Below the pieces are notes generated by a model. The model saw only the letters and a program-made list of their open reading frames with translations. It did no database searches and was not told the DNA's origin. This document shows positions 28,131 to 63,347 of a stretch of 64,000 bases of DNA, one piece after another. Origin of the DNA: Xiphophorus maculatus. Lineage: Eukaryota > Chordata > Actinopteri > Cyprinodontiformes > Poeciliidae. The stretch lies in NCBI RefSeq assembly GCF_002775205.1, contig NC_036456.1, positions 8,955,463-9,019,462 of the forward strand, given 5' to 3'. How positions within the stretch are numbered: position 1 is the first letter of the stretch; the number at the start of each line of letters is the position of its first letter. Position numbers and translations under genes: made by a program.

Positions 28131-29624
28131 TATAAATGTTAAAAGTTCACAAACAAGCACAGAGTGTCGCTTCGTAACGTCCAGCTCTGACACTAACACG
28201 TTCTTTTCATATCACTGAAATGTCCGATCAGCAGGGCTAGTTTCCTGTTCTGTGAGGTCATGGTCACTTTTTTTATCTTCATCTGAAAAACATCATAGCT
28301 AAAGAATAAGTACTACCACAAATATCTTGACACTTCCCACACAGTGTTTTGACACTTAGTTTAACTTCCTTAAACTAAGGTGACTCATGAAAAGACACCC
28401 CAGTTAAACGGTTTTAGGTAACCATTTGTTTAAAGGTCATGTTCAGTTTAGCTTAAATTAAAAGATTTATTTGCTCAAAAACTAGAGGAAGATATGATGT
28501 GCAGAACAAACAAAAAATTCTCAAAAACCTAATGTATATAGGAGAGAATGAAGATAACAGATTTTGCAAATTATTACATTAGTGAACTTTCTAATATATA
28601 GAATTTTTCTCATTAAATAAAAGATTAGTTTAAAATTAAGTAAAAAAAAAAAACTACAAAAGAAGAGCAGTCCATGCACATACTGTCAAAAGTGAACATT
28701 TTGTTCATTTTTTTCTATTTTATCTGCGCCATTCAAACACAGGAAGTGACATCGCTGCACAACAAGCCTGATTTCCTGGCCTGATAATGACATTCTGTGT
28801 GTCGGAGGAATATTCTTTACGTTTTATTTTGGCACAAGTTGCACTGAATTGATCAAAACAACTTAAAAAATTGTTTTTTATTTTGGAATTTAAAACCTCC
28901 GACTTCAGTCTTTTGTCTTTCACCATGGAGAACTGACACTTCCTGTCCACCTAACAGAAGCCATTTTGGGTAAAACTGCTTAATAAGGCTTTACGCTTTA
29001 GTGCAGAGCTTTTAATCAATTGTTTGACGTGTTATTTTAATAAGTACACAATAAAATCACAATTTGTTTCACATGTCAACAACCTCATTGTTCATCTTGT
29101 TAAATCTTTCTGCTGATTGTGGAATCAATTTTAATACCAGTAAACTGACCAAGCAATGAAAGTCCACATGTAGGATCATTTTCCACCCGTTTGAAAAAAC
29201 GTATTCCATTCTTTCTGCTTTTAACTTGTAATGGACTGAATACTCATGTAGATATCATCTTGGACTGCAAACTTAAATACTATTTTTTGTTAACACTGAA
29301 CAAAACTTTAAAACAGTCCAATCAACATCATTAATGTTTTACACACCATGCATTCATGAACTTTCACTCATTTCATTGAAAACAGGCACCGATATCCAAA
29401 CTCTGTGACAATTTCGTATTTATTGCAAACATAGCATAACTGTAAAAGCTACAAATCCAGCTGCGTAGGTAAAAACGGAGTTTGTAATTTTCATCTTTAA
29501 TTTTATTACACAAGAATCTTACAACATTTCAATTTATGAATGTGCGACCTATCCTATTTATGACATGAGCGAAAATGTAAAATTAGAGCGCATCTGATTC
29601 TTGAAGAGATATAGCATAATTAAA

Positions 29625-30689
29625 TCATCTTTGACATCTTAAAGCTGCAGAAATACAATAATCATCACAACATATAATGAAAACATGGCAGCAGAATTGT
29701 CCAGTGTTGTTTCTGACCGTAAAATAATGTGGAGTATCTGTTGCTGCTGGACTCCAATCTCCTGCTGAGAGAGAGAGAGGATATATTCATAAAATTATCA
29801 TGTGCTTTAATTTGTCCAAAAGAAACATCTTGGATAATAAAGTTTTTGCATGAATGACGAGGATGTTATTTACCTTTTTGTTGTTCGGGTTACTAGTTCT
29901 CACCTTCACTGGGGTCTACAATGGAAACCAGAAATCAGAACAGTTTTTATTAAAAGGGGCAGTATTATTTTCCATGCACACATTGTCATTGTATAACACA
30001 ATATGTTAACATAAAAACGTCAATTATTCAGTCAACACGAGTAGTTATTCATCAGTCTGGCAGACTGCAAATATACAAAGGTGTCATCATCAAGTATCTT
30101 ATTAATAGTTATCTTAATTTAATTACCCAAACTCTTTGTGCACAAGGATTTCATTTAAAGTAGAATAAACATATAAAGTGACTTTTTAACTCCCTAAAGC
30201 AGTCAAGTTGAAAATCCATTTGGACTCACCAGTAACAGTTAAAGAGACAGTATCACTGCACTTGGTATCACCAGAGCTCTTCCTGAGTCCACAACACTGG
30301 TATTCACCACTGTGATCGATTTGGATAGGTAGAAATGTGAAGCTTTTGTACGGGTTGGAGCGAAGAAATTGTTCTCCATTTTTTTTTATCTCATATTCCC
30401 AGTCGGTGTCTTTGCCTTCATTGATGTCACAAATGAACGTCACTCTGTCTCCAGAATGAAAAGTCGACCAGTTGGGATCAATAGTCAGCACAGCATCTAA
30501 AATACAGCAAAACACATTTGGCACATTTATATGCTTATAATAGATTTTCATACATCAAATCAAAGAGGCATGCATATGTACCTCTTTTTGTGTGAATAAA
30601 TAAAAGAACAATAAAATCAAGATACCTTCAGTATGTGCAGAGCAGAGGAGAGTATTCAGCAGTAAAATAAAGGCTAAAACCTTTGTCAT
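29625..30689 (-). CDS. Gene E: single-Ig-domain gene without a membrane exon
   Basis: Exons: 30626-30689 (signal peptide MTKVLAFILLLNTLLCS), Ig 30230-30496, mini-exon 29904-29915 (12 nt, PSEG), terminal exon 29625-29761. The sum is 480 nt, an open frame of 159 residues with stop TGA; all splice sites are GT/AG and phase 1. The Ig domain is the gene C/D Ig1 type with the extra CC and KC cysteines. No exon for Ig2, Ig3 or a helix lies between 29916 and 30229, so the predicted product is secreted or a relic. The terminal exon encodes SPAATDTPHYFTV, then a cysteine-rich end. It looks like a gene C/D-type unit that lost its middle by deletion. Expression is unproven. Confidence 0.6.
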
Positions 30690-31115
30690 TATCAACAAAA
30701 ACAAAGTTCAGATAAATGAAAACAGTGCGTTTCACGCTAACATTCAGCACTGAAGCTTGACAGGCACATCCTCTTCATTATAAGTATATCTTATCTGTTT
30801 TCCATCAGAATGACATCAGAGGTTTCAGCTGATTTCTCTTCATCTGAGAAAAAAACATCATTCCTAAAATATAAGTACTAACACTTCTCACACAGGTAAA
30901 AAAAAAATGAGAGACTCACAAAATTAAGAAAAACGAACGATGTACCAGTACTTTAAATATCCATTTTCTCTGTATCAAGTGAGATTTCTCACAGTGTGTT
31001 TATCGGTATGTTCAAGTTCTATAATCCCACAATGGAGGCTGAGAATGGACATATTTTCTCAGAGACTAAAGCAATAGAAATTAATAAAATGTGCTCAAAT
31101 ATTTTAAATAGGAGT

Positions 31116-31154
31116 TGTGTGTGTGTGTGTCGGGGGGGGGGGGGGGGGGGGGGG
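31116..31154. repeat. (TG)n followed by a long G-run
   Basis: TG repeats followed by C and about 22 G. Related tracts occur at 34004-34054, 48100-48142 and 50976-51026, each with different lengths, in the same duplicated flank. Confidence 0.9.
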
Positions 31155-31213
31155 CAGCATCACCAAACTGGCCCATTTGCATCATTCAAACACAGGAAGT
31201 TAAGCCTGACATA

Positions 31214-31466
31214 TGGAATGGACTGAACTTATATAGCGCTTTTCCAGTCATTTTTGACCACTCAAAGCGCTTTACACTAGAGTCACATTCACGCAGTCGC
31301 ACTCACAAACACACACACATTTATACACCGATACGCAGATCGGTAGGCAATTTGGGGTTAAGTGCCTTGCCCAGAGGTACATCGACGTGTGGCAGGAGGA
31401 AGCTGAAATCGAACCTACAACCTTCCGATCGCAAGACGACTACTCTACCAAAGAGCCACAGTCGCC
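31214..31466. mobile_element. ~253-bp teleost interspersed repeat with 4-bp target duplication
   Basis: Begins TGGAATGGACTGAACTTATA, includes AAAGCGCTTTACACT, and ends with GAGCCACAGTCGCC. This is a sequence type common in fish genomes as I recall it. CATA is present on both sides (31210-31213, 31467-31470). The matching flank near gene F (about 34120-34130) shows the empty site GCCTGACATAGGCAGAG with a single CATA. A second copy at 48203-48455 is in the duplicated block. Confidence 0.75.
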
Positions 31467-31832
31467 CATAGGCAGAGAATAACGTCTCAAACCACATAAT
31501 GACCTTATTTTTTCCGGAGAAATATTTTTTATTTTTTATCTTGACGCAAGTTGCGGCAAATATGCTTAAAAAAAAAAAAAAGAGAGAAAAAAGTGTGTTT
31601 TAACGTGGAAAAATAGCACTTCTGTTCACATAACACAAAAACACTTTTCTTATTTATTTTTATATTTCAGGGCAGAGCCTATCATCAGATGTTTTAGTTG
31701 TTTTATTTATTAAAAACAAGTGAAATAAAAGTCATATGATTTGTAGTTAAGCACTCCAAAATGATTAAAGCTTCCTGCAGATTGTATTACATGTTGGGCT
31801 GGTCCTGATGAAAAAAAAAAATCATGACTCAC

Positions 31833-33415
31833 CTGACACAGACGCTGGGATCTTTTCACTCCACTTTGTCTCAGAATACCAGTCGTCTCTGCGTCTACAC
31901 TGACACCTGTACTCTTCACTACTGGACTCATTAACACTGACAGTCAGGTGTTTATTATTTCCCACTTTTACAGGTTTCCCATCTCTCCTCCATTCGTACG
32001 TCCACTCAATGGTTTCTCCTCCCTGGACCTCACATGTCAGAGTGATCGACTCACCACTGAACATCTGAGGCCAGTTTGGTTGTCGAGTCACAACGACCTC
32101 ATTGGAAACTGTTTCCATCAGATATGGACAGTTGCAAAACAAACCAAAACATAAAAATAAATTAAAAACACCTCATGAGTTTAAGCTAAAAAGTAAAGAA
32201 TAATAAACTGCATTTAAAATAAATAATTGAACTTACAGCTTATTGTGATGCTGACTTCGTCACTTACAAGACTTTGATAGTTTTCATTTCCTCTCATTCC
32301 CAGACATCGGTATATTCCTCCTTGTGCTACATTAATATCTCTGTTTTCTTCATCAGTGAGTTGAACTTCAGGTGTGTTTTTGGTCTTTCTGAACCATTTG
32401 TATTTCCATCCACCAGCAGAGGGCAGATAGCAGCTCAGTGTCACACTGCCCCCTACTGGTATGGTTGTAGGACCTGCAGTCAGTGTGGCTTTGGGTTGAG
32501 CTGATGTTAATAAAATGAAATAAAAACGTCAGTTAACACGTTTAGTTATTCTTCAGTCAGATTGAGATCAAATATTCAAATGTCTCATCATAATATATGA
32601 CAAAAATCTATAATTGAGTTTCTCTAATGGGAATCACATGTTATCTTGAAATAGTTATCTTAATTTAAAGACAGAAATAAAAACAGAGAAAAAACAAAAC
32701 AAAACAAAAAAAATAATTTATGCTATTCTGTGATTAGCTCACCTAATGAAAAATAACATTATTTATAAAATAGTAAGTTTAATTGCATTTCATAGAATTT
32801 TGTTTTCTGTGGATGGGCGGGTTGAAACTGCTGAGGTTAAAATATAATTTTTCGAGGAACAAAAAAAAGCTAAAATGATTTTCTGCATATAGATTTAACT
32901 TACAGAGGAGTAAACATGTGTATTAGCTACACAACTCTCAACAATGTACAAATCTGGTTGAATAAGATCATTTGGACTCACCAGTAACAGTTAAAGAGAC
33001 AGTATCACTGCACTTGGTATCACCGGAGATCTTCCTGAGTCCACAACACTGGTATTCATCACTGTGATCGATTTGGATAGGTTGTAATGTGAAGCTTTTG
33101 TGCGGGTTGGAGCGAAGAAATTGTTCTCCATTTTTTTTAATCTCATATTCCCAGTCGGTGTCTTTGCCTTCATTCATGTCACAAATGAACGTCACGCTCT
33201 CTCCAGGATGAAAAGTCGACCAGTTGGGATCAATAGTCAGAATTGCGCCTAAAACGCAGCACAACACATTTAGCACATTTATCATGCAGTTTATACAGAC
33301 GTGCCTCATCATGAGATTATAAATAAATATGAAGAATAAAAGAGAAAATACCTTCAGCATGTCCGCAGCAGAGGAGTGCATTCATCACTAAGATAAAACC
33401 TAAAACGTTTGTCAT
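31833..33415 (-). CDS. Gene F: three-Ig-domain ectodomain lacking helix and tail exons
   Basis: Exons: 33352-33415 (signal peptide MTNVLGFILVMNALLCC), Ig1 32982-33248, Ig2 32237-32500 (one extra Gly: PSAGGWKYKW), Ig3 31833-32108, all open with correct splice sites. Downstream of Ig3, where C and D have helix and tail exons, the sequence is instead the upstream flank of gene E. No stop follows in a usable terminal exon of its own. The Ig3 donor (GTGAGT) is intact and phase 1, so it could splice into gene E's Ig exon at 30230-30496. Otherwise it is a truncated duplicate. Confidence 0.6.
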
Positions 33416-33675
33416 TATTAATGTTAAAAGTTCACAAACAAGCACAGAGTGTCGCTTCGTAACGTCCAGCTCTGACACTAACACGTTCTTTTCATATCAC
33501 TGAAATGTCCGATCAGCAGCGCTAGTTTCCTGTTCTGTGAGGTCATGGTCATTTTTTTTATCTTCATCTGAGAAACATCATAGCTAAAGAATAAGTACTA
33601 CCACAAATATTTTGACACTTCCCACACAATGTTTTGACACTTAGTTTAACTTCCTTAAACCAAAGCATAATTAAA

Positions 33676-33830
33676 TCATCTTTGGCATCTTAAAGCTGCA
33701 GAAATACAATAATCATCACAACATATAATGAAAACATGGCAGCAGAATTGTCCAGTGTTGTTTCTGATCATAAAATAATGTGGAGTATCTGTTGCTGCTG
33801 GACTCCAATCTCCGGCTGAGAGAGAGAGAG
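33676..33830 (-). pseudogene. Orphan terminal tail exon upstream of gene F
   Basis: Copy of the GDWSPAATDTPHYF terminal exon seen at 29625-29761 and 23012-23148. Here the acceptor AG is changed (CCG in place of CAG next to GAGATTGG), and it lies directly against gene F's upstream flank because the intervening sequence present near genes C and D has been deleted. No upstream exon can use it obviously. Confidence 0.6.
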
Positions 33831-34022
33831 AAAGAGAGAGCATCCATTTTCTCTGTATCAAGTGAGATTTCTCACAGTGTGTTTATCGGTATGTTCAAGT
33901 TCTATAATCCCACAATGGAGGCTGAGAATCGACATATTTTCTCAGAGACTAGATTAAAGCAATAGAAATTAATAAAACGTGCTCAAATATTTTAAATAGG
34001 AGTTGTGTGTGTGTGCGTGTGT

Positions 34023-34053
<31 letters not shown>

Positions 34054-34439
34054 GCAGCAGCACCAAATTGGCCCTTTGTATCATTCAAACACAGGAAGTT
34101 AAGCATTTAACCATAAAGCCTGACATAGGCAGAGAATAACGTCTCAAACCACATAATGACCTTATTTTTTCCGGAGAAATATTTTTTATTTTTTATCTTG
34201 AAGCAAGTTGCGGCAAATATGCTTAAAAAAAAAAAGAGAGAAAAAGTGTGTTTTAAAGTGGAAAAATAGCACTTCTGTTCACATAACACAAACACACTTT
34301 TCTTATTTATTTTTATATTTCAGGGCAGAGTCTATCATCAGATGTTTTAGTTGTTTTATTTATTAAAAACAAGTGAAATAAAAGTCATATGATTTGTAGT
34401 TAAGCACTCCAAAAATGATTAAAGCTTCCTGCAGATTGT

Positions 34440-35678
34440 AGAATAACTTTTCCTACCATGATGTACAATTGTTCTCCAACTTGAAGCAGGGTTGGTGGAG
34501 GAGTGATGATTTATGTTTGTTCTGGAGGTTAGTTAGCTTATAAAATCTAAAATGTTTTACATATTTGTTAAAACTGTCACGATGTCCTGACAGTAGAATA
34601 TGAGACAGATATTCTGTGAAAAATATAAAAATAAATCAAGATAATCTGCCTCCTACCAGTGGTCCTACTGCCATATTCGTCTCTACAATAAATAAATTCA
34701 AACATAATTAAATTGAAAAAATTTTTATTAAACATCAACTGTCTCAACCTCACCAGAGCTCTGTCTTTCACTTAAATCAACAGACGTCCTTGATATCAAA
34801 ACAATCGTTACGGTTTCTTATAAACATTAAATCGCATGTTTTGGCTTTCTTTTTTTTCTGCGTTTTGAGCTCATCGAGTTTCGTAACATTTCCCACTTCT
34901 TCATTTTTACATTTCCCACTTCTTCATTTTAGCTTGACCAAAGAACATTTCAACATTTCCTATCAACTTAACTAGAATTTCTCGCCCAATCGACTCCAAT
35001 CAGCAGGAAATGAAGAACAAATGCGATCAGATATTTCAAGTTTTGGTTGTAAAGTATATTTACACCTTACGATCACTTATGAATGAACTTTTCACTCCTT
35101 AGGAGTTGAGTAAAAAAATGTGTTCATGTTACACTGAACTACTGACAAAAGATAAAACAGAAATCTGAAAGGTAAATAAACATGTCAGTGGTTTTGAATT
35201 CATTTGAAAGAAAAGTCTGACTCATGAATCCAGAGATACTCGACTTGGTGCCCCAATTCAAGTAAAATAACTTTAACTTTTACTAATAATTCCATTAATT
35301 GAAGATAAACACTATCTTACCACTGAATACTTCTTGTGAAAATGTATGTGTGCTTTTCAGTCTCATTGGTGTATTTATATATGTTGTTTGTCACTGTGGT
35401 TTCTTCTCTTTTTTTCTCTCTTTCTGCAGAAACAGTTTCCTAATGTGATACATTCTCTCTTCCTTTCTTTCTTTCTTTTTATCTCCCTACTTTCCTTTAA
35501 ACGTTTTGCCAGTCCTCTCTTCGTTTCTTTTTTCACTTTTTTACCCTTTCGTGTCTCTGTGTCCACTGCATTTGAAATAAAACGCAATGCAATTTCTAAC
35601 CGAAGAAGAACAACAGTGGAGGAGAGTTTGGCCACTGTACCTTAGGTTTTTATAAATTCTGATGCCTATTTCAACTCA
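34440..35678. other. Intergenic region between gene F and the Rex3 element
   Basis: No gene seen. Contains a pyrimidine-rich tract (about 35400-35480). Apparent reading frames here on either strand are low-complexity and are not supported. Repeated unchanged at about 51408-52646. Confidence 0.6.
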
Positions 35679-35679
35679 T

Positions 35680-37140
35680 GTCCATCCATCCATCCATTTT
35701 ATTCTGCTTATCCGAGGTCGGGTCACGGGGGTAGCAGCTTCAAAAGGGAGGCCCAGACTTCCCTCTCCCCGGCCACTTGTTCCTCCGAGGGAATCCCGAG
35801 GCGTTCCCAGGCCAGCCGAGAGACATAGTCCCTCCAGCGTGTCCTGGGTCTTCCCCAGGGCCTCCTCCCGGTGGGTCATACCCAGAACGCCTCACCAGGG
35901 AGGCGTCCAGGAGGCATCCTGACCAGATGCCAGAGCCACCTCAACTGGCTCCTCTCGACGTGAAGGAGCAGTGGCTCTACTCTGAGTTTCTCCCGAATGA
36001 CTGAGCTTCTCACTCTATCCCTAAGGGAGAGCCCAGACACCCTACGGAGAAAACCCATTTTGGCCGTTTGTATCCGCAATCTCGTTCTTTCGGTCATGAC
36101 CCAAAGCTCATGGCCATAGATGAGGGTGGGAACGTAGATCGACTGGCAAATCGAGAGCTTCGCTTTTTGACTCAGCTCTCTCTTCCCCACGATGGACCGG
36201 TACAGCGCCCACTTGACGACAGAAGCTGCGCCAATCCGCCTGTCAACCTCCTTCTCCCTTCTTCCCTCATTCATGAAGAAGATCCCAAGATCTCCTCCAC
36301 TTGGGGCAGGCTCAAGACCATGGCCTCGGATTTGGAGGCACTGATCCCCATCCCGGCCGCTTCACACTCGGCTGCAAACTGCTCCAGCGAGAGCTGCAGA
36401 TCATGACCTGATGAAGCCAATAGGACCACATCATCCGCAAAAAGCAGAGATCCTAAAACCACCAGAATGGATCCCCTCAACACCTTGGCTGCGCCTAGAA
36501 ATCCTGTCCATGAAAGTGATGAACAGAATCGGTGACAAAGGGCTGCCCTGGCAGAGTCCAACTCTCACTGGAAACGAGCCCGACTTACTGCCGGCAATGC
36601 AGACCAGACTCTGACACCAGTCATACAGGGACCTGACAGCCTGTATCAAAGGGCCCGGTACCCCATACTCCCGGAGAACCCCCCACAGGCCTCCCCGAGG
36701 GACACGGTCGAATGCCTTCTCCAAGTCCACAAAACACATGTAGACCGGTTAGGCGAAATCCCATGCACCCTCCAGGACCCTGCCAAGGGGGTAGAGCTGG
36801 TCCAGTGTTCCACACTTGTGACCCCTCCATAATTAGAGCACACCCTCCGGTCCCCCTTTTTGAACAGGGGGACCACCACCCCAGTCTGCCAATCCAGGGG
36901 AGCTGCCCCTGATGTCCATGCAATATTGCAGAGTCGCGTCAGCCAACACAACCCTACAACATCCAGAGCTTTAAGGAACTCCGGGGGGATCTCATCCACC
37001 TCCAGGGCCTTGCCACCGAGGAGCTTTTTAACCACCTCATGACCTCATCCCCAGAGATTGGAGAGCCCAACCCAAAGTCCCCTGGCTCAGTTTCCTCATT
37101 GGAAAGCATGTTGGTGGGATTGAGGAGGTCTTCAAAGTAT
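35680..37140 (-). mobile_element. Rex3-family (RTE clade) non-LTR retrotransposon, 5'-truncated
   Basis: The minus strand carries reverse-transcriptase pieces in broken frames: FVDLEKAFDRVPRG (about 36690-36735), LLFADDVVLLASS with the catalytic FADD box (about 36410-36450), and ELWVMTERTRLRIQ in the C-terminal part (about 36080-36120). The lower-coordinate end is a TCCATCCATCC tract, i.e. GGAT repeats at the element's 3' end, as in Rex3. Two stretches, near 36531 and near 36870, agree with the standard Rex3 PCR primer sites as I remember them. Not coding-competent. It sits where gene G's last tail exon should be. Second copy: 52647-54104. Confidence 0.8.
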
Positions 37141-38267
37141 AGGGTTAGGGTTTAACATCACCATCCCCACTATAAACAGTGTGGTGCTGTACTGCTTCCC
37201 CCTCCTGAGATGCCGGATGGTGGACCAGAAACTGTTTGTGTAGAAATATACATATTTCTATACCACTACATGTAATTAAAATAAGTCTAATAGCATGAGG
37301 ACAAGTTACAGTAAAAACAAAGCAAGACAGCTAGAACTAACTGTACCTGTTTTCATGTCGGAGCCAACAGCGCCCTCTTGTGGATCATGTGGATCTTCTG
37401 TTGAGATGGTTAAAAAAACACAAACCTGAAGGTTAAACCCCGTTCTGACTGAGTTATGTTCTGCTGCTGTAAATCAAATGTCTTACTCATCGTCCCAACA
37501 TTTTTCCCTTCAATCTGGGAGTACACAGTGTTTATGGATTTATCTGTAAAGAAAATAATCAAGGATTATACAGTTACACAACATTAGGCCTTCTAGGTGA
37601 CCAATTGGCAGCATTCTTAACTACTTTACTTTGACAATAATGGTCCACTGATCTTATTGACATCACAAGATTTCGAAGTTACAAAGTTGGGCCTACGGGT
37701 AATGGGATTCATTAAAAATGTATTTAAACAATTCCAACAGTACAATGAGGACTTCTTTTTCAGAAAACACACAACAATCTGAGAATGTAAAATGTTATGA
37801 CTCTTAATTCATCGCAGAGTAAAACCGGAAGGCATGCAGCCAGTAGCTTTACAAGCCCATATTTGTAACCCCTCTCTGACTTTTAGGTTTAGTCCCAACA
37901 TGGTTGGAGCAATAATATTTTGGAGTGGGTAATTCAGAGTCCTGATGTAATAACTGTGGAGATTCTCTGGAGGGAGCTAAAGATTAGGATTAAGGTGACG
38001 ACAAGGTGCCATTACAATTTAAATACTCTGAGTTCATCACCATTGATAAATCTTTAAAATAGGAGTGGAAACACACAAAACCTGGTCAGCAAACCATGAG
38101 AAGGGTTTTATTATCAGTACCTGCAGATCCTTTTTTCACAATAGTGTAAACAGTGACCACTTCTGGACCAACACAAAGTCCTGTTGAGTCGAAAAAAAAC
38201 CCCCAAAAAACCCCACCAAAACAAAGATCAAACCAGCTGTATGTAACCAGTATGTAACTTTTTATTA

Positions 38268-38314
<47 letters not shown>
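38268..38314. repeat. (AT)n microsatellite
   Basis: Uninterrupted AT repeat in the gene G tail region; also at about 55236-55279 in the second copy. Confidence 0.95.
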
Positions 38315-38319
<5 letters not shown>

Positions 38320-38470
38320 GTTTTTATCTACTTAAATAAAAACACACACACACACTCCTACTTATGTCGTGACAATTTAATGTAAGATAGATGAAGTGGA
38401 AAAAAAACAAAAAAAAACAAGCTCCTCTGCCTTTTCCCAGTGCTAACACCAAGAATACATCACTGAGTCA

Positions 38471-38672
38471 GAAACAACCAATCAGAGCTAGGAGGAGGGT
38501 CTTAGTGTTGTCAATCGCTCTCTTGCTACCACCAATGCTAATGCTACTTTCACAGCCACAGATGAAGGTGGATGGCCTTTTTTCCAAACAGTATGTTTTT
38601 CCACCATCGGCACATTGAGCAGTATTGATTGACAGCACTAAGACCCTCCTCCTAGCTCTGATTGGTTGTTTT
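38471..38672. mobile_element. Foldback (MITE-like) element
   Basis: 46-bp arms at 38471-38516 and 38627-38672 are reverse complements with two mismatches; both contain CCAATCAGAGCTAGGAGGAG or its complement. The 110-base loop has no coding signal. Second copy 55436-55637. The family is not assigned. Confidence 0.75.
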
Positions 38673-39285
38673 TGACTGGGAGCGGTGCATTTTTAGAATA
38701 AAATGGGATTTATTAAAATATTACATTTAATTTACAATTAATGTTAAATTGTTCATTTTCTCATTTGTTTGTGCTGCAGTAAAACAATTAAGACCATTAG
38801 GAAACACTACTATTTAATGAATATCTGAATTACATCACTGTGTTGTAGAAACTATGTCATTTATTCATGTTTATACATTTGTACATGTATATACTTATGC
38901 ACATTTCTATAAAAACCGGCTTCAATATACAAACTGCGTCACAGTCTTGTATTTATTATGAACAGCACAGTTGTAAAAGCTATGCTGCTTAAAACCTTTG
39001 AAAAGTCTGCTTTAGAAATGTAAAATAAACCCACCGGACAATAAAGACTTGAAATGAAAGATGATAATATTTAGCCTAAGCCAGAGTCCAAGACAGAAAC
39101 TGGAGCCACATTAGAAGATAAAATGATCAGTAACAATCTAATCAATCAGGTGTTTATCTGACCTTCATGCTGAGCTGTAATTATCTGGTCTCACATTAAT
39201 GTAAACAGAACCTTCTTCTGGATCAGGAGGTCTAAAGTAGATGTAAAAAAATGTCAAAGAAAAGTTTGTATCTGAATGCAATTAT

Positions 39286-40545
39286 CAATCAATCAATCAA
39301 TCAAATTTTATTTGTATAGCACATTTCAGCAGCAAGGCATTTCAAAGTGCTTTACATCATATCAAACACAGAATCACAATGCAATATAGAATCAATCATT
39401 AAGTCAAGTTCCATCAATAAATTTGTAATTGATTACATTTCAAATACAATTCTAAACAGGTGGGTTTTCAGTTGAGATTTAAAGGAAGTCGGTGTTTCAG
39501 CTGTTTTACAGTTTTCTGGAAGTTTGTTCCAGACTTGTGGTGCATAGATGCTGAAAGCTGCTTCTCCTCGTTTGGTTCTGGTTCTGGGGATGCAGAGCAG
39601 AACCAGAACCAGAAGACCTGAGAGGTCTGGAAGGTTGATACAATAAAAGCAGATCTTTAATGTATTGTGTTGCTGAGCCGTTCAGTGATTTATAAACTAA
39701 CAACAGTATTTTAAAGTCTATTCTTTGAGCTATAGGGAGCCAGTGGAGGGACTTTAAAACTTTAAAAGAGACATTGGAAATATTCACCCCCTTACTGATA
39801 ACCAGGTCCAGTGTGTGTTGCTTGTTTGACATGTTGCGTTAGACCAAAAGTCTGTAAAATATTAGAAAGTTTTTTTGCCCCTCTGTCTTGGGGGTTGTCA
39901 ACATGAATGTTGAAATCACCGACAATTATTAAACAATCATAATCAATACATATGAGAGATAAAAGCTCATTCAAGTTAGTAAAGAAATTTTCCATGTATG
40001 TTGGAGTTTTGTATGAAGTTAGTGTCAAAGTTAGTTTGTGGCCTTTAACCTCAATTCCAAGATACTCAAAACAGGCGAAGTGACCCAAGGAAAGTTTACT
40101 ACAATTTATGGTATTCTTAAATACTGAAGCCACGCCTCCTCCTTTTTTATGTTTTCTATTCTCACTGAAGAAACTGTAGTTTGGAGGCGGTGATTCAATT
40201 AGTACGATCGGTTCATTATTGTCATTCAACCATGTTTCTGTCAGAAACATAACATTGATATTAAGCTCAGTGATGAAATCATTAATGAATAGAGCTTTAG
40301 CACAGAGAGATCTGGCATTTAAAAGAGCTAGTTTAAGTGACTTGGAGGCCAAAAGTTCTTCAGTCTGAGGTTTGATTTAGGTCCGCTGAATTTTTGTTTC
40401 TGTTTTTTGTAAATTTTCTTCTAGTGATCCGGACAGGTAATGTCCTCTTTCACAGTTAAGTAAATTAATAAGATCTATTTTGTAGATGCTCGGATACTAT
40501 GTTTATCATTTCATTCCTGATGGGGATAATTGTGAGCTTGTTACA
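39286..40545 (-). mobile_element. L2-like LINE derivative: endonuclease joined to C-terminus, RT deleted
   Basis: Minus-strand frame 39792-40352 has apurinic-endonuclease-like features: LNARSL, FLTETWL and GDFNIHVDN. The next frame (39506-39832) begins with the endonuclease end (HTLDLVISKG). It then passes straight to SLHWLPIAQRIDFKILLLVY, a sequence normally at the far C-terminus of L2-type ORF2. The entire reverse transcriptase is missing. The 3' end has CAAT repeats and TTTTATTTGTATAGCACATT, typical for L2 tails. Inserted in a gene G tail intron. Second copy 56252-57510. Confidence 0.7.
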
Positions 40546-51025: not shown

Positions 51026-52646
51026 CAGCAGCACCAAATTGGCCCTTTGTATCATTCAAACACAGGAAGTTAAGCATTTAACCATAAAGCCTGACATAGG
51101 CAGAGAATAACGTCTCAAACCACATAATGACCTTATTTTTTCCGGAGAAATATTTTTTATTTTTTATCTTGAAGCAAGTTGCGGCAAATATGCTTAAAAA
51201 AAAAAGAGAGAAAAAGTGTGTTTTAAAGTGGAAAAATAGCACTTCTGTTCACATAACACAAACACACTTTTCTTATTTATTTTTATATTTCAGGGCAGAG
51301 TCTATCATCAGATGTTTTAGTTGTTTTATTTATTAAAAACAAGTGAAATAAAAGTCATATGATTTGTAGTTAAGCACTCCAAAAATGATTAAAGCTTCCT
51401 GCAGATTGTAGAATAACTTTTCCTACCATGATGTACAATTGTTCTCCAACTTGAAGCAGGGTTGGTGGAGGAGTGATGATTTATGTTTGTTCTGGAGGTT
51501 AGTTAGCTTATAAAATCTAAAATGTTTTACATATTTGTTAAAACTGTCACGATGTCCTGACAGTAGAATATGAGACAGATATTCTGTGAAAAATATAAAA
51601 ATAAATCAAGATAATCTGCCTCCTACCAGTGGTCCTACTGCCATATTCGTCTCTACAATAAATAAATTCAAACATAATTAAATTGAAAAAATTTTTATTA
51701 AACATCAACTGTCTCAACCTCACCAGAGCTCTGTCTTTCACTTAAATCAACAGACGTCCTTGATATCAAAACAATCGTTACGGTTTCTTATAAACATTAA
51801 ATCGCATGTTTTGGCTTTCTTTTTTTCTGCGTTTTGAGCTCATCGAGTTCGTAACATTTCCCACTTCTTCATTTTTACATTTCCCACTTCTTCATTTTAG
51901 CTTGACCAAAGAACATTTCAACATTTCCTATCAACTTAACTAGAATTTCTCGCCCAATCGACTCCAATCAGCAGGAAATGAAGAACAAATGCGATCAGAT
52001 ATTTCAAGTTTTGGTTGTAAAGTATATTTACACCTTACGATCACTTATGAATGAACTTTTCACTCCTTAGGAGTTGAGTAAAAAAATGTGTTCATGTTAC
52101 ACTGAACTACTGACAAAAGATAAAACAGAAATCTGAAAGGTAAATAAACATGTCAGTGGTTTTGAATTCATTTGAAAGAAAAGTCTGACTCATGAATCCA
52201 GAGATACTCGACTTGGTGCCCCAATTCAAGTAAAATAACTTTAACTTTTACTAATAATTCCATTAATTGAAGATAAACACTATCTTACCACTGAATACTT
52301 CTTGTGAAAATGTATGTGTGCTTTTCAGTCTCATTGGTGTATTTATATATGTTGTTTGTCACTGTGGTTTCTTCTCTTTTTTTCTCTCTTTCTGCAGAAA
52401 CAGTTTCCTAATGTGATACATTCTCTCTTCCTTTCTTTCTTTCTTTTTATCTCCCTACTTTCCTTTAAACGTTTTGCCAGTCCTCTCTTCGTTTCTTTTT
52501 TCACTTTTTTACCCTTTCGTGTCTCTGTGTCCACTGCATTTGAAATAAAACGCAATGCAATTTCTAACCGAAGAAGAACAACAGTGGAGGAGAGTTTGGC
52601 CACTGTACCTTAGGTTTTATAAATTCTGATGCCTATTTCAACTCAT

Positions 52647-54104
52647 GTCCATCCATCCATCCATTTTATTCTGCTTATCCGAGGTCGGGTCACGGGGGTA
52701 GCAGCTTCAAAAGGGAGGCCCAGACTTCCCTCTCCCCGGCCACTTGTTCCTCCGAGGGAATCCCGAGGCGTTCCCAGGCCAGCCGAGAGACATAGTCCCT
52801 CCAGCGTGTCCTGGGTCTTCCCCAGGGCCTCCTCCCGGTGGGTCATACCCAGAACGCCTCACCAGGGAGGCGTCCAGGAGGCATCCTGACCAGATGCCAG
52901 AGCCACCTCAACTGGCTCCTCTCGACGTGAAGGAGCAGTGGCTCTACTCTGAGTTTCTCCCGAATGACTGAGCTTCTCACTCTATCCCTAAGGGAGAGCC
53001 CAGACACCCTACGGAGAAAACCCATTTTGGCCGTTTGTATCCGCAATCTCGTTCTTTCGGTCATGACCCAAAGCTCATGGCCATAGATGAGGGTGGGAAC
53101 GTAGATCGACTGGCAAATCGAGAGCTTCGCTTTTTGACTCAGCTCTCTCTTCCCACGATGGACCGGTACAGCGCCCACTTGACGACAGAAGCTGCGCCAA
53201 TCCGCCTGTCAACCTCCTTCTCCCTTCTTCCCTCATTCATGAAGAAGATCCCAAGATCTCCTCCACTTGGGGCAGGCTCAAGACCATGGCCTCGGATTGG
53301 AGGCACTGATCCCCATCCCGGCCGCTTCACACTCGGCTGCAAACTGCTCCAGCGAGAGCTGCAGATCATGACCTGATGAAGCCAATAGGACCACATCATC
53401 CGCAAAAAGCAGAGATCCTAAAACCACCAGAATGGATCCCCTCAACACCTTGGCTGCGCCTAGAAATCCTGTCCATGAAAGTGATGAACAGAATCGGTGA
53501 CAAAGGGCTGCCCTGGCAGAGTCCAACTCTCACTGGAAACGAGCCCGACTTACTGCCGGCAATGCAGACCAGACTCTGACACCAGTCATACAGGGACCTG
53601 ACAGCCTGTATCAAAGGGCCCGGTACCCCATACTCCCGGAGAACCCCCCACAGGCCTCCCCGAGGGACACGGTCGAATGCCTTCTCCAAGTCCACAAAAC
53701 ACATGTAGACCGGTTAGGCGAAATCCCATGCACCCTCCAGGACCCTGCCAAGGGGGTAGAGCTGGTCCAGTGTTCCACACTTGTGACCCCTCCATAATTA
53801 GAGCACACCCTCCGGTCCCCCTTTTTGAACAGGGGGACCACCACCCCAGTCTGCCAATCCAGGGGAGCTGCCCCTGATGTCCATGCAATATTGCAGAGTC
53901 GCGTCAGCCAACACAACCCTACAACATCCAGAGCTTTAAGGAACTCCGGGGGGATCTCATCCACCTCCAGGGCCTTGCCACCGAGGAGCTTTTTAACACC
54001 TCATGACCTCATCCCCAGAGATTGGAGAGCCCAACCCAAAGTCCCCTGGCTCAGTTTCCTCATTGGAAAGCATGTTGGTGGGATTGAGGAGGTCTTCAAA
54101 GTAT
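52647..54104 (-). mobile_element. Rex3 element, copy in duplicated block
   Basis: Same ends and content as 35680-37140, with a few single-base differences (for example near 53150, 53300, 53998) that shift reading frames. Confidence 0.8.
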
Positions 54105-54308
54105 AGGGTTAGGGTTTAACATCACCATCCCCACTATAAACAGTGTGGTGCTGTACTGCTTCCCCTCCTGAGATGCCGGATGGTGGACCAGAAACTGTTT
54201 GTGTAGAAATATACATATTTCTATACCACTACATGTAATTAAAATAAGTCTAATAGCATGAGGACAAGTTACAGTAAAAACAAGCAAGACAGCTAGAACT
54301 AACTGTAC

Positions 54309-55231
54309 CTGTTTTCATGTCGGAGCCAACAGCGCCCTCTTGTGGATCATGTGGATCTTCTGTTGAGATGGTTAAAAAAACACAAACCTGAAGGTTAAAC
54401 CCCGTTCTGACTGAGTTATGTTCTGCTGCTGTAAATCAAATGTCTTACTCATCGTCCCAACATTTTTCCCTTCAATCTGGGAGTACACAGTGTTTATGGA
54501 TTTATCTGTAAAGAAAATAATCAAGGATTATACAGTTACACAACATTAGGCCTTCTAGGTGACCAATTGGCAGCATTCTTAACTACTTTACTTTGACAAT
54601 AATGGTCCACTGATCTTATTGACATCACAAGATTTCGAAGTTACAAAGTTGGGCCTACGGGTAATGGGATTCATTAAAAATGTATTTAAACAATTCCAAC
54701 AGTACAATGAGGACTTCTTTTTCAGAAAACACACAACAATCTGAGAATGTAAAATGTTATGACTCTTAATTCATCGCAGAGTAAAAACCGGAAGGCATGC
54801 AGCCAGTAGCTTTACAAGCCCATATTTGTAACCCCTCTCTGACTTTTAGGTTTAGTCCCAACATGGTTGGAGCAATAATATTTTGGAGTGGGTAATTCAG
54901 AGTCCTGATGTAATAACTGTGGAGATTCTCTGGAGGGAGCTAAAGATTAGGATTAAGGTGACGACAAGGTGCCATTACAATTTAAATACTCTGAGTTCAT
55001 CACCATTGATAAATCTTTAAAATAGGAGTGGAAACACACAAAACCTGGTCAGCAAACCATGAGAAGGGTTTTATTATCAGTACCTGCAGATCCTTTTTTC
55101 ACAATAGTGTAAACAGTGACCACTTCTGGACCAACACAAAGTCCTGTTGAGTCGAAAAAAAAACCCCCAAAAAACCCCACCAAAACAAAGATCAAACCAG
55201 CTGTATGTAACCAGTATGTAACTTTTTATTA

Positions 55232-55283
<52 letters not shown>

Positions 55284-58200
55284 GTTTTTATCTACTTAAA
55301 TAAAAACACACACACACACTCCTACTTATGTCGTGACAATTTAATGTAAGATAGATGAAGTGGAAAAAAAACAAAAAAAAAACAAGCTCCTCTGCCTTTT
55401 CCCAGTGCTAACACCAAGAATACATCACTGAGTCAGAAACAACCAATCAGAGCTAGGAGGAGGGTCTTAGTGTTGTCAATCGCTCTCTTGCTACCACCAA
55501 TGCTAATGCTACTTTCACAGCCACAGATGAAGGTGGATGGCCTTTTTTCCAAACAGTATGTTTTTCCACCATCGGCACATTGAGCAGTATTGATTGACAG
55601 CACTAAGACCCTCCTCCTAGCTCTGATTGGTTGTTTTTGACTGGGAGCGGTGCATTTTTAGAATAAAATGGGATTTATTAAAATATTACATTTAATTTAC
55701 AATTAATGTTAAATTGTTCATTTTCTCATTTGTTTGTGCTGCAGTAAAACAATTAAGACCATTAGGAAACACTACTATTTAATGAATATCTGAATTACAT
55801 CACTGTGTTGTAGAAACTATGTCATTTATTCATGTTTATACATTTGTACATGTATATACTTATGCACATTTCTATAAAAACCGGCTTCAATATACAAACT
55901 GCGTCAACAGTCTTGTATTTATTATGAACAGCACAGTTGTAAAAGCTATGCTGCTTAAAACCTTTGAAAAGTCTGCTTTAGAAATGTAAAATAAACCCAC
56001 CGGACAATAAAGACTTGAAATGAAAGATGATAATATTTAGCCTAAGCCAGAGTCCAAGACAGAAACTGGAGCCACATTAGAAGATAAAATGATCAGTAAC
56101 AATCTAATCAATCAGGTGTTTATCTGACCTTCATGCTGAGCTGTAATTATCTGGTCTCACATTAATGTAAACAGAACCTTCTTCTGGATCAGGAGGTCTA
56201 AAGTAGATGTAAAAAAATGTCAAAGAAAAGTTTGTATCTGAATGCAATTATCAATCAATCAATCAATCAAATTTTATTTGTATAGCACATTTCAGCAGCA
56301 AGGCATTTCAAAGTGCTTTACATCATATCAAACACAGAATCACAATGCAATATAGAATCAATCATTAAGTCAAGTTCCATCAATAAATTTGTAATTGATT
56401 ACATTTCAAATACAATTCTAAACAGGTGGGTTTTCAGTTGAGATTTAAAGGAAGTCGGTGTTTCAGCTGTTTTACAGTTTTCTGGAAGTTTGTTCCAGAC
56501 TTGTGGTGCATAGATGCTGAAAGCTGCTTCTCCTCGTTTGGTTCTGGTTCTGGGATGCAGAGCAGAACCAGAACCAGAAGACCTGAGAGGTCTGGAAGGT
56601 TGATACAATAAAAGCAGATCTTTAATGTATTGTGTTGCTGAGCCGTCAGTGATTTATAAACTAACAACAGTATTTTAAAGTCTATTCTTTGAGCTATAGG
56701 GAGCCAGTGGAGGGACTTTAAAACTTTAAAAGAGACATTGGAAATATTCACCCCCTTACTGATAACCAGGTCCAGTGTGTGTTGCTTGTTTGACATGTTG
56801 CGTTAGACCAAAAGTCTGTAAAATATTAGAAAGTTTTTTTGCCCCTCTGTCTTGGGGGTTGTCAACATGAATGTTGAAATCACCGACAATTATTAAACAA
56901 TCATAATCAATACATATGAGAGATAAAAGCTCATTCAAGTTAGTAAAGAAATTTTCCATGTATGTTGGAGTTTTGTATGAAGTTAGTGTCAAAGTTAGTT
57001 TGTGGCCTTTAACCTCAATTCCAAGATACTCAAAACAGGCGAAGTGACCCAAGGAAAGTTTACTACAATTTATGGTATTCTTAAATACTGAAGCCACGCC
57101 TCCTCCTTTTTTATGTTTTCTATTCTCACTGAAGAAACTGTAGTTTGGAGGCGGTGATTCAATTAGTACGATCGGTTCATTATTGTCATTCAACCATGTT
57201 TCTGTCAGAACATAACATTGATATTAAGCTCAGTGATGAAATCATTAATGAATAGAGCTTTAGCACAGAGAGATCTGGCATTTAAAAGAGCTAGTTTAAG
57301 TGACTTGGAGGCCAAAAGTTCTTCAGTCTGAGGTTTGATTTAGGTCCGCTGAATTTTTGTTTCTGTTTTTTGTAAATTTTCTTCTAGTGATCCGGACAGG
57401 TAATGTCCTCTTTCACAGTTAAGTAAATTAATAAGATCTATTTTGTAGATGCTCGGATTACTATGTTTATCATTTCATTCCTGATGGGGATAATTGTGAG
57501 CTTGTTACAACTTTGAATTGTTTTTATGAACCAAACTCATGGTTATAATATAATTATATGTTGTCATACTGAGCAGCAGAACCATAATATCTGTAGATTA
57601 ATTCTGACATAAAAATTAAGCTCAGCAAACAAATATTCAGGTGTTTCACTTTGTTGTTTGTGTTTGTCAGAAGGAATGACTCTTAAAGTAGACACTTTGA
57701 TATTTTTATACATTTAATAAAACTGTTTTATTATGAAGAAAAAAGTTACAACAAAGTGATGTTATGTCCAAATTAATACTGATGTTTATTCTGTGACTAA
57801 CCATGCAGCAGAAAGCTGTAATCACTTTCAGGTCTGGTTCACTCCATGATTAGTGGTCGGCCTCTGGCTGCTGCTTTCAGACTGAAATGACCTAAAAATA
57901 TTAAAGTGGATAAATTTAACTATGAAACAAAGATCAAGAGTTTATGACTATGATGAAAGAACAGATATTTCATTCTGACCTGATTGCAGCTCAATCTGGA
58001 GAAGATAAAAAAAGCCATTTAGATCATCGACAACAGAATTAAATTGATGAACACCGAATTTCAAAAGTCATATTTTAATACACGTGATTCAATAACACAT
58101 TATTCAGGTTAGAAGCACTAAAATGAGAAGAAAATGTTCTGACCTTTGGACCGTCTGCAGCGCCACAACAAGAGCAGGAGGACAATGAGAACGATTCCAC

Positions 58201-61200
58201 TAACTGGTCCAACGATCAACATCACAGGAAATGAAGAGATGACAGGACTGGATACAGTTACTGGAAAAAATAAATCATAAAACATTTATTTTAGTCCTCA
58301 TTTTATTCAACAGCAACAGAAACATTTTATTAGTGTGTTTATTAAAATTACAAACTGCAGCTTTAACTTGATATTGTTAAATTGTGATTCTATGTATGAA
58401 GTAAAAAAAACATCTGTTCAGCTCAGAGGACAGATCTATCCACCTGGTGGGTTTAACAGGGTGCAGGTCATTTTTCTGACTTTTATTTGTACAATGCACA
58501 ATATTGTAACGACTATTTTATTGTGTTTATATGTCTATAATTATAAGACATTCCTCTAGTTATTATCTTTCATTAGAGCCTCAGTGATGACTGTATGTTG
58601 AATCACTGAGGAGTTTCAGTCATTTGAAGTTTATATATCAGACGTTGTCCAGTTGTTGTCCAGATGTGCCATTTCTCTAATGAAATTTCACATTAAGTAT
58701 CTGGAGAACATAGAAAAACACTCACACACATGAACATGTCCATTTTTTTTTTTGCACGATTTTGATCAATTTTTAAATCCACAAACAGAATACTTAATTC
58801 TACATTTTCATTTTATTGTCCAGTCCAAACATTCAACACTCAATGTTACATAGAAATAGACATGAAAAGTTTTGGCAAAGCAAAAAGTTTCTAATTTGTT
58901 TGTGTCACAAACTTAATATCTGCATATTAATTACAGTTGAAGGATTTTTGACTGCAAAAATAAAAATATATAAACATCTTATTTGACATTTTGACATCGT
59001 AAGAGACCAAGCTTTTGCATTTACTCCAAATGGTTCAAGAACAGCAGCTGCTTTAATTTGGTTAAACCTTTTCAGGCGTTTTTGATCATTTAGATGTGGC
59101 TGTTACAAACTGTGGTTATTGAGTGGTGAGGACGACGCGGTGGACCCAGGTTGTAGAGCAAATGATGATGGTTTTAATGAAGAAATCACAAAATACAAAG
59201 TCCAGGCAGCACAGGTGAGCAATAAGGCAAAGAGCTCAAACACTGGTAGCAACTGGAATACAAACTGGACTCGAACGAGGGAAAGGTAGACGACACATGA
59301 CTTTAGACTTTAGACTAGGACCCGACAGGGAAACACAGATGGGATTAAATACACAGGGAAGGTAATCAGGGAACAATAGAGACAGCTGGGAGCAATAATG
59401 GCCAGAGAGACAGGAACTAAATTAACACACAGAGAATAAAACCACATCCTCACAGTGGCCAGTTAGAAAATGTTTTACTCTAATTTTGCTGAAAAAAAGT
59501 TATCTACTGTTATTTTGAGGTAGTAGTGATGTAACTGTATCAGAGATCATAATATCATAAGAAACTAATATGAGTGAATATTGATGTTATTAAAGGAATC
59601 CTGCTGCATTTAGTTTTGCTGATCTATCCTCACAGTTCAGACCAGGTCAAACAAACTTGTATCACAACAATGAGCTGCTTAATCTAAACAAAAAGACATT
59701 TAAAGAGAAATCTGACTAAAATAGTTCAACACTCAACTTGTTAACTCACTACTAGAAGTTTTCTGTTTTATTCTTTAGATAAAAACAACTTTGGGAACAA
59801 TGTGCACATAGCAACACAATTAACAGTTGTGGTTTTATTATTGTAACTTGTTAAAGGAAGTGAACAATAAAAATCAGCTCCTTGTTTTCTGCAGTTAAAA
59901 ATTCATAACTCAAATTAGGCCTAGTCAGTTTTATTCTGGTCTGTCCAGGGAAGAAACTTCATTTAATCCAACATATCAGGAAAACATTTTTTCTACAATC
60001 TGTTCAGAAAAAAACAACAATTAAATCACCTGTTATGGTTTCACTCCACTGTGTTGAAGAATACCAGTCATCTCTGCTTCTACACTGACACATGTAGTTT
60101 CCACTGCTGGACTCAGAGACATTGAAAGTCCAGTCTTTACTGTCTGTCCACTGTATTATTGACCCAGATCTCCTCCATTCACACGTCCACTCAGTGGTTT
60201 CTCCTCCCTGGACCTCACATGTCAGAGTGATCGACTCACCACTGAAGACATGAGAACCGTTTGGTTGTCGAGTCACAAAAACCTTGTTGGAAACTGTTTA
60301 CATCAGATATGGGCAGAAAAATTAAATCACATGAGAAATTTTAATTTCATAGTTTTAGTTTCAAACAGTCTTATAGAAAAAACTTACACATTATTTCAAT
60401 GATGTTCTCAAGGCTTGAATGACTGTAGAATGAGGGATTTCCTCTCTTTCCATCACACTTATAGATTCCTCCTTGTGTCACAGTGATTTCTCTGTTTTCT
60501 TCATTATTTCTGCTGAATTCAACAAAAGAAGAATCTGAGGTCCGCCTGAACCATTTGTACTTCCATCCAGCAGAGGGCTCCACTGAGCAGCTCAGTGTCA
60601 CACTGCCCCCTACTGGTATGGTTGATGAACCTGCTGTCAGTTTGGCTCCAGGTTTATCTCCTGTTAACATGAATTAAAATTGGTTAATTTTCAATAATTT
60701 AAAAAAACATACAAGTCTTGTAGCAGAACAAGCTACAGACTCGTTAACTGAAATAAATGAGTAGATCGGAAAATTACTGAAAATATGTCAACAATGTAGA
60801 ACTTCATTAATATGAATTATTCTGGTAGTTATTCATCGTTTCAGCCATACAGATTAACAACCAGCCTCTGATTATTGTGAGACTTCACAAAAGAAACCTG
60901 ATATAGAAACTTTTTCTAATAGAAAGGTTCAATCTGTGTGTGTGTGTTTGTATGTGAGTGTGGGAGTTAAGCATTAATTCTGACAACTCAACTATGGACT
61001 AAATCAGCCACATTTTCATTTACAAGTGTCAACTTACTTGATACAGACAGTCTGATGGTTTCACTCCTCTGTGTTGAAGAATACCAGTCATCTCTGCTTC
61101 TACACTGACACATGTAGTTTCCACTGCTGGACTCAGAGACAATGAAAGTCCAGTCTTTACTGTCTGTCTTGTGTATTATTGACCCAGATCTCCTCCATTC

Positions 61201-63347
61201 ACACGTCCACTCAGTGGTTCCTCCTCCCTGGACCTCACATGTCAGAGTGATCGACTCACCACTGAACATCTGAGGCCAGTTTTGGTTGTCGAGTCACAAA
61301 ACCTTGTTGGAAACTGTTTACATCAGATAAGAAGAGAAAACTCAAATCACATGAGAAATATTAATTTCATACTTTTAGTTTCTAAAAGTCTTTAAAAATC
61401 TTACACATTATTTCAATGATGTTCTCATGGCTTGAATGACTGTAGAATGAGGGATTTCCTCTCTTTCCATCACACTTATAGATTCCTCCTTGTGTCACAG
61501 GATTTCTCTGTTTCTTCATTATTTGTGTTGAATTCAACAAAAGAAGTGACTGAGGTCCGTCTGAACCATCTGTACTTCCATCCAGCAGAGGGCTCCACTG
61601 AGCAGCTCAGTATCACACTGCCCCCTACTGGTATGGTTGTTGAACCTGCTGTCAATGTGGCCATGGGTCTGTCTGATGTTATAAAAACAAATATTTGATT
61701 TTATATAAAATACTGCAATTAAAAGCTATTGTAAAGAGTGATGCTTCTCTCAGAAAAGTAAATATGTGAAAAATCTGTAAATGCATTTTATTGTCATCTT
61801 TGCTTATTATAGATACTTTTTAGAAAGTAAAATAGAAAAGAATTAGTTTGAAATTGTTTAATTAAATAACATGAAAGAGTTCATTCTCTTTTCTGAAAAG
61901 ATAATGTGGTTAACTCTACAATTAAGCAAATCTATATATTCACATTAAGGTAAATAATATTTTCTTTGTTTTGTTGCTCTTTTTGAAATTTGTGTCTCAC
62001 TTGACTTTATAAAAATCAAACCCAGTAATTATGTATGTGTCATATTTCAGACACTATTTTATCAACAAAAAAATCTGCTTGAAATAATGAAATAAAATAC
62101 AGATAGCAATGCATGTTTTTTTTTAGGGCTGATATAAAACTTTGTAATTCTTTAAAATATTCAGGTCTTACCTGAGACAGTAACAGTGACAGTTTTACTG
62201 CACTTATTGTCAGATGAACCCTTCCAGCATACACAGCACTGAAATTCATGTCTATAACTAGTAGATATACGTTGAAAACTGAAACGTTTATCTGACTGAT
62301 AGGGAAAACAATTCTTGACCATTCCTTTAAAGCCGGTATTTCCAGTCAGTGTCTCTTCCTACATTCATGTCACAGATAAATGTAACAATCTCTCCAACAT
62401 AAAAATTCAACCAGTTGGGTTCAACAGTCAGAACAGGATCTATAACAGAACCAACATTCAGCAAGTTTGTCTTTGATTTATAACAAAAACACATCAAGAT
62501 AAAAATTAAAAGATAAACACAGAATAATATCTGATATAAAAGATAAACTGGATTCTGTTCCTGAGAGGATAAATGATTAAAAAACAGATTAAAGGCTGAA
62601 ATTACCAAGAGTTTGTCCACAGCAGAGCAGTGTGTTCAGCACTGAAATAAAGGTTGAAAGTTCATCAGCATAAATAATAAATTAATTAAATTAAATCAAA
62701 AATATTTGCCAAAACCCTCACACTCAGCTATGACTCTGTTTAACCTGTTAAATAAATGCAACTATGATAAATATATTGAGTATTTATTTGTTCTGATAAG
62801 AATAAGATCAAATGTTTTAGTTTATTGTTGTTTTTTCTGATGAGTTAAAACTTCATTTTATAAACTTCACATCCTGACTGAAGACAGAACATCTGCAGAC
62901 GTTCTGCACGGCTACGGAAACTTCACACTCATCTCTACTGGTAAAAACGTGATAAAAGTTTTTAATGAATAATTTAAGTCTCTTGTATCAGATCATGTTT
63001 CATTTTTCATCTTTGTTATATAATATTTTCATTTCTCCCACATTAGTTGTATGGGATATAAAGTTCTGTGCTAAAGTCTGATTTTACAATAAACAGCTTT
63101 TCAAAATGTTTGCACAGAAATGTTTGTGTTAGTAATTTGTCACTGAAATAACCTGTTTGAAGTTGCAGCAAACACATCAAGAACAAATGGTTATACTAAG
63201 TAAAGCTACACCAATACAATGGAAGATAAAGTAGATATTACAGCAGACAAGATGTCAAAGACGATGTTCTTCTAATCTGCATCATTCATACAGATAAGTG
63301 ATCTACTTACAGAGTGAGACCAGAACCCTGGGTGAGGTGTTCCCCAT
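54309..63347 (-). pseudogene. Gene G' (copy 2 of gene G) including the first exon
   Basis: Exons: 63311-63347 (MGNTSPRVLVSL, same as gene B), 62606-62641, Ig1 62172-62439, Ig2 61405-61672, Ig3 61038-61313, Ig4 60388-60660, Ig5 60030-60293, helix 58144-58260, 57980-57995, 57802-57891, 56131-56197, 55084-55143, 54449-54505, 54309-54359. Ig4 and Ig5 (273 and 264 nt) are intact here but shifted in copy 1. Ig2 is shifted here by other indels than in copy 1. In Ig3 two opposite one-base indels near 61281 and 61300 garble the first residues. The TAA in Ig1 (62327-62329) is shared with copy 1, so it may be real. The best consensus of G needs both copies read together. Confidence 0.6.
56252..57510 (-). 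mobile_element. L2-like LINE derivative, copy in duplicated block
   Basis: Same structure as 39286-40545, with single-base differences (near 56553, 56646, 57209, 57459) that break the reading frames differently. Confidence 0.7.

Follow-up and report, generated by a model that had tools for sequence, protein, structure and literature searches.

The 64,000-nucleotide stretch of the Xiphophorus maculatus genome analyzed here (C14:8955463-9019462, referred to as the window) carries immunoglobulin (Ig) genes of Fc-receptor-like type, together with two near-identical 16.5-kb blocks that face each other across the only run of N in the window. A first-pass annotation had called these blocks a likely false duplication, that is, one stretch of DNA extended twice into a gap. 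Here, we report that the blocks are the same phase of two versions of a repeating 32-kb unit and that, judged from sequence comparison, the N run rather probably marks the place where scaffolding joined two contigs within a genuine, young tandem array of Fc-receptor-like gene cassettes, not one stretch written twice.

Searches covered the genome (704 Mb, 101 contigs), and the analysis included the next 100 kb beyond the right end of the window, numbered in continued coordinates (window numbering extended rightward), as well as the small contigs C66 and C77. Probe searches of the genome scored the best candidates only, and the numbers of places are lower bounds. For comparison among units, La, Lb, U1, U3, C66, and C77 (labels below) were each aligned pairwise to U2; these alignments superseded a multiple alignment of the units in which the ends of C77 were wrongly placed. 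The main features are listed here, with strand where one applies and with phase 0 at the unit junction.

13795-29501: first array unit (Lb), phase ~16.37k-32.07k; clean sequence, with the left edge of the array at ~13.8-14.0 kb.
29502-45991: copy 1 (La), array phase 0-16.49k; continuous with Lb, ending at the gap.
45992-46490: run of 499 N; putative scaffold join within the array, its length probably a placeholder.
46491-62956: copy 2, the first 16.5 kb of U1, phase 0-16.49k; noisy.
46491-64000: U1 within the window; continues to 78529, after which come U2 and part of U3, still free of N.

In continued coordinates, the units on the right were labeled U1 (46491-78529), U2 (78530-110596), and U3 (110597 to ~127690). 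On its minus strand, U2 contains five first-domain Ig exons, two transmembrane exons, and a single signal-exon segment; some exons of the U2 type are hidden by noise in U1. Out of 10 scanned peptides, 7 matched Pfam Ig families, 1 an endonuclease domain, and 1 a reverse transcriptase, and 1 had no match; the endonuclease and reverse transcriptase peptides would derive from elements resembling long interspersed nuclear elements (LINEs). The best PDB match of the one exon searched was FCRL5 (Fc receptor-like protein 5; 8.9e-13), which gives these genes both Ig domains and a nearest solved relative of the Fc receptor/FCRL kind. A search of the window against Rfam at the gathering threshold gave no matches. 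Each unit on C14 also carries a first-domain Ig exon (30230-30496, 47220-47486, and continued 79259 and 111326), found without following domains nearby in a strict exon scan and possibly a gene fragment.

Copies 1 and 2 form a single end-to-end match (BLASTN, 99.21% identity, 18 mismatches, 98 gap openings, 112 gap bases), and the N run adjoins the inner ends of both, just as had been noticed from the letters of the window. The repetition extends well beyond these blocks. The 35 kb at 10998-45991 match both 60031-95020 and 92095-127096, and 46491-95969 matches 78530-128046 (continued coordinates), giving a head-to-tail period of 32.07 kb in which U1, U2, and U3 are consecutive without N; there is one N run in 164 kb. 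Unit lengths were 32,039 bp (U1), 32,067 bp (U2), and 32,055 bp (C66). The array comprises one unit left of the gap, ~2.5 ungapped units on the right, and the small contigs C66 and C77, and it extends from 13.8 kb in the window to ~63.7 kb past the window end; U1 ends at continued coordinate 78529 (C14:9033991). The unit junction is unbroken (~100%) at three places on C14, one in the window and two to the right of the gap (9033492 and 9065557). A constant period is crossed without gaps, and La, U1, U2, U3, and C66 are separable by variants of their own; C77 is not.

The whole block recurs at 99% in U2, U3, and C66 and in part in C77. With a 592-bp probe taken from where copy 1 ends, matches of at least 98% were found at six or more places (both copies, two further places on C14, C66, and C77). 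Probe 41500-42400 (901 bp) found at least six places, reported at 100% (four on C14, C66, and C77); probe 34500-35600 (1,101 bp) matched at full length at least four times on C14 (100%), matched C66 at 98%, and matched in part at a contig end of C77; and probe 24000-24900 found at least three places on C14 and at least one on C66. Since U1, U2, and C66 run on past phase 16.49k to 32k, the assembled 17-kb spacing of the two copies is out of step with the array. For the same reason, a real tandem duplication with the assembled period of 16.99 kb, although it is the literal layout of the scaffold, is scarcely credible: the other junctions of the array are spaced at 32 kb, and U1, U2, and C66 do not return to phase 0 after phase 16.49k. 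The first-pass annotation had held a real recent tandem duplication in reserve; duplication is what we favor, with a unit of 32 kb in place of the assembled spacing.

Both array edges (~13.8-14.0 kb and ~127.6-127.7 kb) fall at the 5' segment of a G-type gene, of which 150 bp are repeated exactly.

10998-13794: diverged (~93%), older version of the gene-G segment, directly outside the near-identical array.
14271-14420, minus strand: signal-exon/promoter segment of a G-type gene; 150 bp identical at 14271, 63306, and continued 95371 and 127447.
63306-63455, minus strand: the same 150-bp signal-exon segment in U1, identical at the four places.

In copy 1, the sequence stops at the gap before the counterpart of this segment would be reached. 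With both edges at the 150-bp 5' segment, unequal crossing-over between near-identical 5' ends of G-type genes is the probable origin of the array. The gene-G-like segment at 10998-13794 is a possible partner in the original event. A jump in identity at 62.8 kb, first taken as gene conversion, proved to be the array edge. U2 has a cluster of private substitutions (30 in the 2-kb bin 80530-82529, continued coordinates, outside the window); some of them, viewed by eye, resemble the neighboring gene at 26.9 kb and make the bin a possible gene-conversion tract.

When aligned with MAFFT, copies 1 and 2 differed by 92 gap runs, 81 of them 1 bp long, and by 31 substitutions, 11 of which were more than 8 columns away from any gap. 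The earlier description of the differences as mostly single-base indels is borne out. Gap runs were enriched in homopolymers (11 in runs of at least 8, against 0.9 expected). Among clean paralogues, the pair 20958-23392 and 27569-30002 had 63 mismatches and 5 gap openings, and the pair 9979-11615 and 10998-12634 had 81 and 3; a short pair (31467-31786 and 34124-34440) had 4 mismatches and 3 gap openings. As the long clean duplicates are dominated by mismatches, the indel excess between copies 1 and 2 is best read as sequencing noise.

This noise is unevenly placed. Copy 1 is clean up to ~41.4-42.8 kb and then noisy, and copy 2 is noisy throughout. At ~42.8 kb in copy 1, the density of gap runs increases from 4.4 to 10.0 per kb (59 runs lie before this point and 32 after it, with 91 of the 92 included; P = 0.0005). 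Indels confined to one copy, judged against the other array units, numbered 50 in copy 2 and 6 in copy 1 before phase 13,275, and 14 and 19, respectively, after it. Noise had been placed at about 42.8-64 kb with clean sequence to the left; the onset near 42.8 kb stands, but a few copy 1 errors occur already from 41.4 kb, and right of the gap the noise extends past the window to 78.4 kb (last private U1 indel, continued coordinates), becoming sparser after ~74 kb. Over all units, noise affects the La tail, U1 in patches along its length, and C66 at either end, whereas Lb, U2, the middle of C66, and most of U3 are clean. When indel direction alone was used, the change point peaked at 45.35 kb, which gives no independent support for 42.8 kb. 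Anchoring of reads in unique flanks was considered as the source of the clean sequence but set aside as only partly consistent, since clean sequence extends ~29 kb into the left side of the array and ~49 kb into the right side.

Exon lengths were compared as well. Out of 16 lengths given earlier as signs of error, 11 were recovered (for gene G, 269 and 275 in copy 1 and 268, 276, and 273 in copy 2; for gene F, 267, 264, and 276 in copy 1 and 264, 263, and 274 in copy 2); the lengths 278, 263, and the last 264 of gene G, as well as 63 and 64, were not.

32982-33248, minus strand: gene F Ig exon, 267 bp in copy 1 and 264 bp in copy 2 (49960-50223).

In copy 1, LINE-like frames at 35879-36361 and 39795-40376 are open for 161 and 194 codons; their counterparts in copy 2 (52846-53208 and 56759-57223) are shorter, at 121 and 155 codons, owing to single-base deletions in copy 2.

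Near-identical blocks that meet an assembly gap at contig ends, with a raised error rate, are what a homotype false duplication would leave, and all of these were found here. In a passage of the Vertebrate Genomes Project account (PMC8081667), such a duplication is an overlap at a contig boundary turned into a tandem duplicate with a gap between, and a passage of PMC9516828 includes both low depth and a gap separating the copies in its signs of false duplication. The geometry fits that published pattern, the last 3.2 kb carry independent noise in both copies, and the substitution difference is very low. However, the same dovetail is expected anyway from contig ends inside a 32-kb tandem array, and no real variants should separate two readings of one haplotype's DNA.

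Such variants are present at nine sites. La and U1 differ by 124 events over 16.49 kb; 102 of these affect La or U1 alone and are mostly indel noise. Before phase 13,275, there were 50 indels and 9 substitutions in U1 alone, 6 indels in La alone, 9 indels and 2 substitutions with both states found in other copies, and 1 unassigned event; after it, the counts were 14 indels and 3 substitutions (U1 alone), 19 indels and 1 substitution (La alone), and 2 indels and 8 substitutions (both states found in other copies). Out of 15 shared substitutions, 9 were used. Phase 466, shared by U1 and C66 alone within their common prefix, was dropped, as were phases 2686 and 2785, which separate U2 and not copy 1 from copy 2, and three others beyond the end of copy 1. 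The informative sites are 33029/50007 and eight tail sites, both states of each being present in other units.

33029: substitution, A in copy 1 (as in U2 and C66) and C in copy 2 at 50007 (as in U3), from unit alignments.
42787-45991: noisy tail of copy 1; U3 states at 8 shared sites (against U1, U2, C66, and C77), with U3 alone differing at 6 further sites.

At the tail sites (42787, 42794, 43118, 43289, 44156, 44157, 45440, and 45616), La equals U3, and copy 2 equals U2, C66, and C77, at 8 of 8. Local multiple alignments were inspected for all informative sites except 43289. Copy 1 is not U3 itself, since U3 has 27 substitutions of its own below phase 17,000, 6 of them in the tail stretch. 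By BLASTN, the identity of copy 1 was 99.21% to U1, 99.23% to C66, 99.49% to U2, and 99.56% to U3, with 18, 15, 28, and 30 mismatches, respectively; U2 and U3, the farther two by mismatches, carry private tracts. Copy 2 is among the nearest to copy 1 by mismatches, level with C66, but is no unique partner.

States shared with other copies hardly come from random error, and copies 1 and 2 are thus probably not the same DNA read twice, although they may be alleles. A homotype origin would need a chimeric extension of the copy 1 tail from another unit and a separate explanation of 33029, and we regard it as improbable; the proposal that both copies are one stretch extended twice is not supported, given the nine sites, and copy 2 is no special partner of copy 1. 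What survives of it is that the inner ends behave as poorly polished contig ends at an unreal assembled spacing. An attempt to score reciprocal error from paralogues within the window (102 difference clusters) was dropped after third copies revealed some clusters as shared variants; it had favored copy 1 in 24 and copy 2 in 4 clusters of the body (37 undecided), and copy 1 in 11 and copy 2 in 17 clusters of the tail (9 mixed or undecided), a pattern that had pointed to reciprocal error in line with the first-pass annotation.

Alleles would imply a heterotype overlap, in which the left contig ends in one haplotype, the right contig starts in the other, and the locus holds about three units. A passage of PMC8081667 describes heterotype duplication, two haplotypes set side by side, in flanking contigs. 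The dovetail at the gap has this geometry, nine differing sites per 16.5 kb are a plausible allelic difference, and, by coordinate arithmetic, removal of the overlap leaves ~97 kb, near three 32.07-kb units plus an edge segment. Against this, the copy 1 tail has the states of U3, a right-hand unit, which fits shuffling among units, and C66 differs from La, U1, U2, and U3 and would be left over. Neither point is decisive, and we consider heterotype overlap unlikely, though less so than a homotype origin.

The small contigs and the start of the right-hand sequence bear on how the gap came about. C66 (32,055 bp) aligns end to end with one unit and is exactly one period long; C77 (19,782 bp) covers phase 5428-25219 and has no substitutions relative to U2 or to C66 over 19.8 kb. 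U1 and C66 start at the same base.

46491-47844: 1,354-bp prefix identical to one end of C66; contains four variants without counterpart in La, U2, and U3.

Within the prefix, the places matching 29770 and 29965-29967 look like copy 2 errors, with one paralogue compared at each. The common start and the one-period length of C66 would resemble an assembly-graph loop that was never resolved. According to a passage of PMC10320752, 500 N served as a placeholder in the Hi-C scaffolding of another assembly; we guess that the same was used here, though the run, at 499, is one short. Neither the gap length nor the assembled spacing is probably physical.

Under the favored reading, a scaffold join within a tandem array, the contig assembler would have been unable to thread the array, so that the left contig stopped at phase 16.49k of one unit and the right contig started from phase 0 of another, with C66 and C77 as units left over. 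Scaffolding would then have joined both contigs with a placeholder gap, and poor polishing of contig ends inside the array would have left the indel noise. Given the 32-kb period elsewhere, at least 15.6 kb (phase 16.49k-32.07k) would be missing in the N run if the array is regular, and whole further units may be as well. Several points weigh against this reading. Both the number of units and the contiguity of U1, U2, and U3 are taken from the assembly. Over the 13.3 kb of clean sequence in copy 1, one informative site only separates it from copy 2, so that the case is thin there and leans on the noisy tail, where U3-like states might come from reads misassigned in extension or polishing. Allelic variation could account for all nine informative sites, the gap could be where two haplotypes overlap unmerged in an array of three units, and C77 may be redundant.

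More tentatively, the locus may be a young cassette array that is still homogenizing, with units exchanging tracts and with more units than were assembled, their number probably varying among individuals; the assembly would then understate the duplication.

A second duplication lies left of the window (C14:8875463-8880118 and 8938396-8943055, ~63 kb apart; 98.5% over 4.66 kb, 59 mismatches, 5 gap openings), and pairs of probe matches at similar spacing within 8.87-8.95 Mb suggest that it is longer.

For users of this assembly, removing one copy as a false duplication could be a wrong correction, as the locus is more likely short of sequence. Gene counts for the receptor family, and pseudogenes called from copy 2 frameshifts, are not to be trusted here. 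A dovetail across a gap with indel noise cannot alone separate a false duplication from contig ends in a large array, a distinction for which variants that recur in third copies are helpful. An array that is real and variable would offer a ready case of immune-receptor copy-number variation.

Compared with known systems, the locus resembles false duplications at contig boundaries (PMC8081667, PMC9516828) in its near-identical blocks flanking a gap and its raised error rate, but the block is repeated in further copies as a phase of a 32-kb array, and the two sides carry different variants that recur in those copies. Zebrafish NLR genes (PMC11192531) similarly comprise many very similar immune gene copies whose number is poorly captured by one reference; here, the genes are Fc-receptor-like Ig genes, known from a single assembly. 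The goosegrass EPSPS cassette (PMC10421919), at an unrelated locus and with an unrelated cause, is likewise a duplicated cassette of many kilobases with a hand-built model and an adjoining repeat array that is ambiguous in a long-read assembly, although in goosegrass the junctions were checked with reads.

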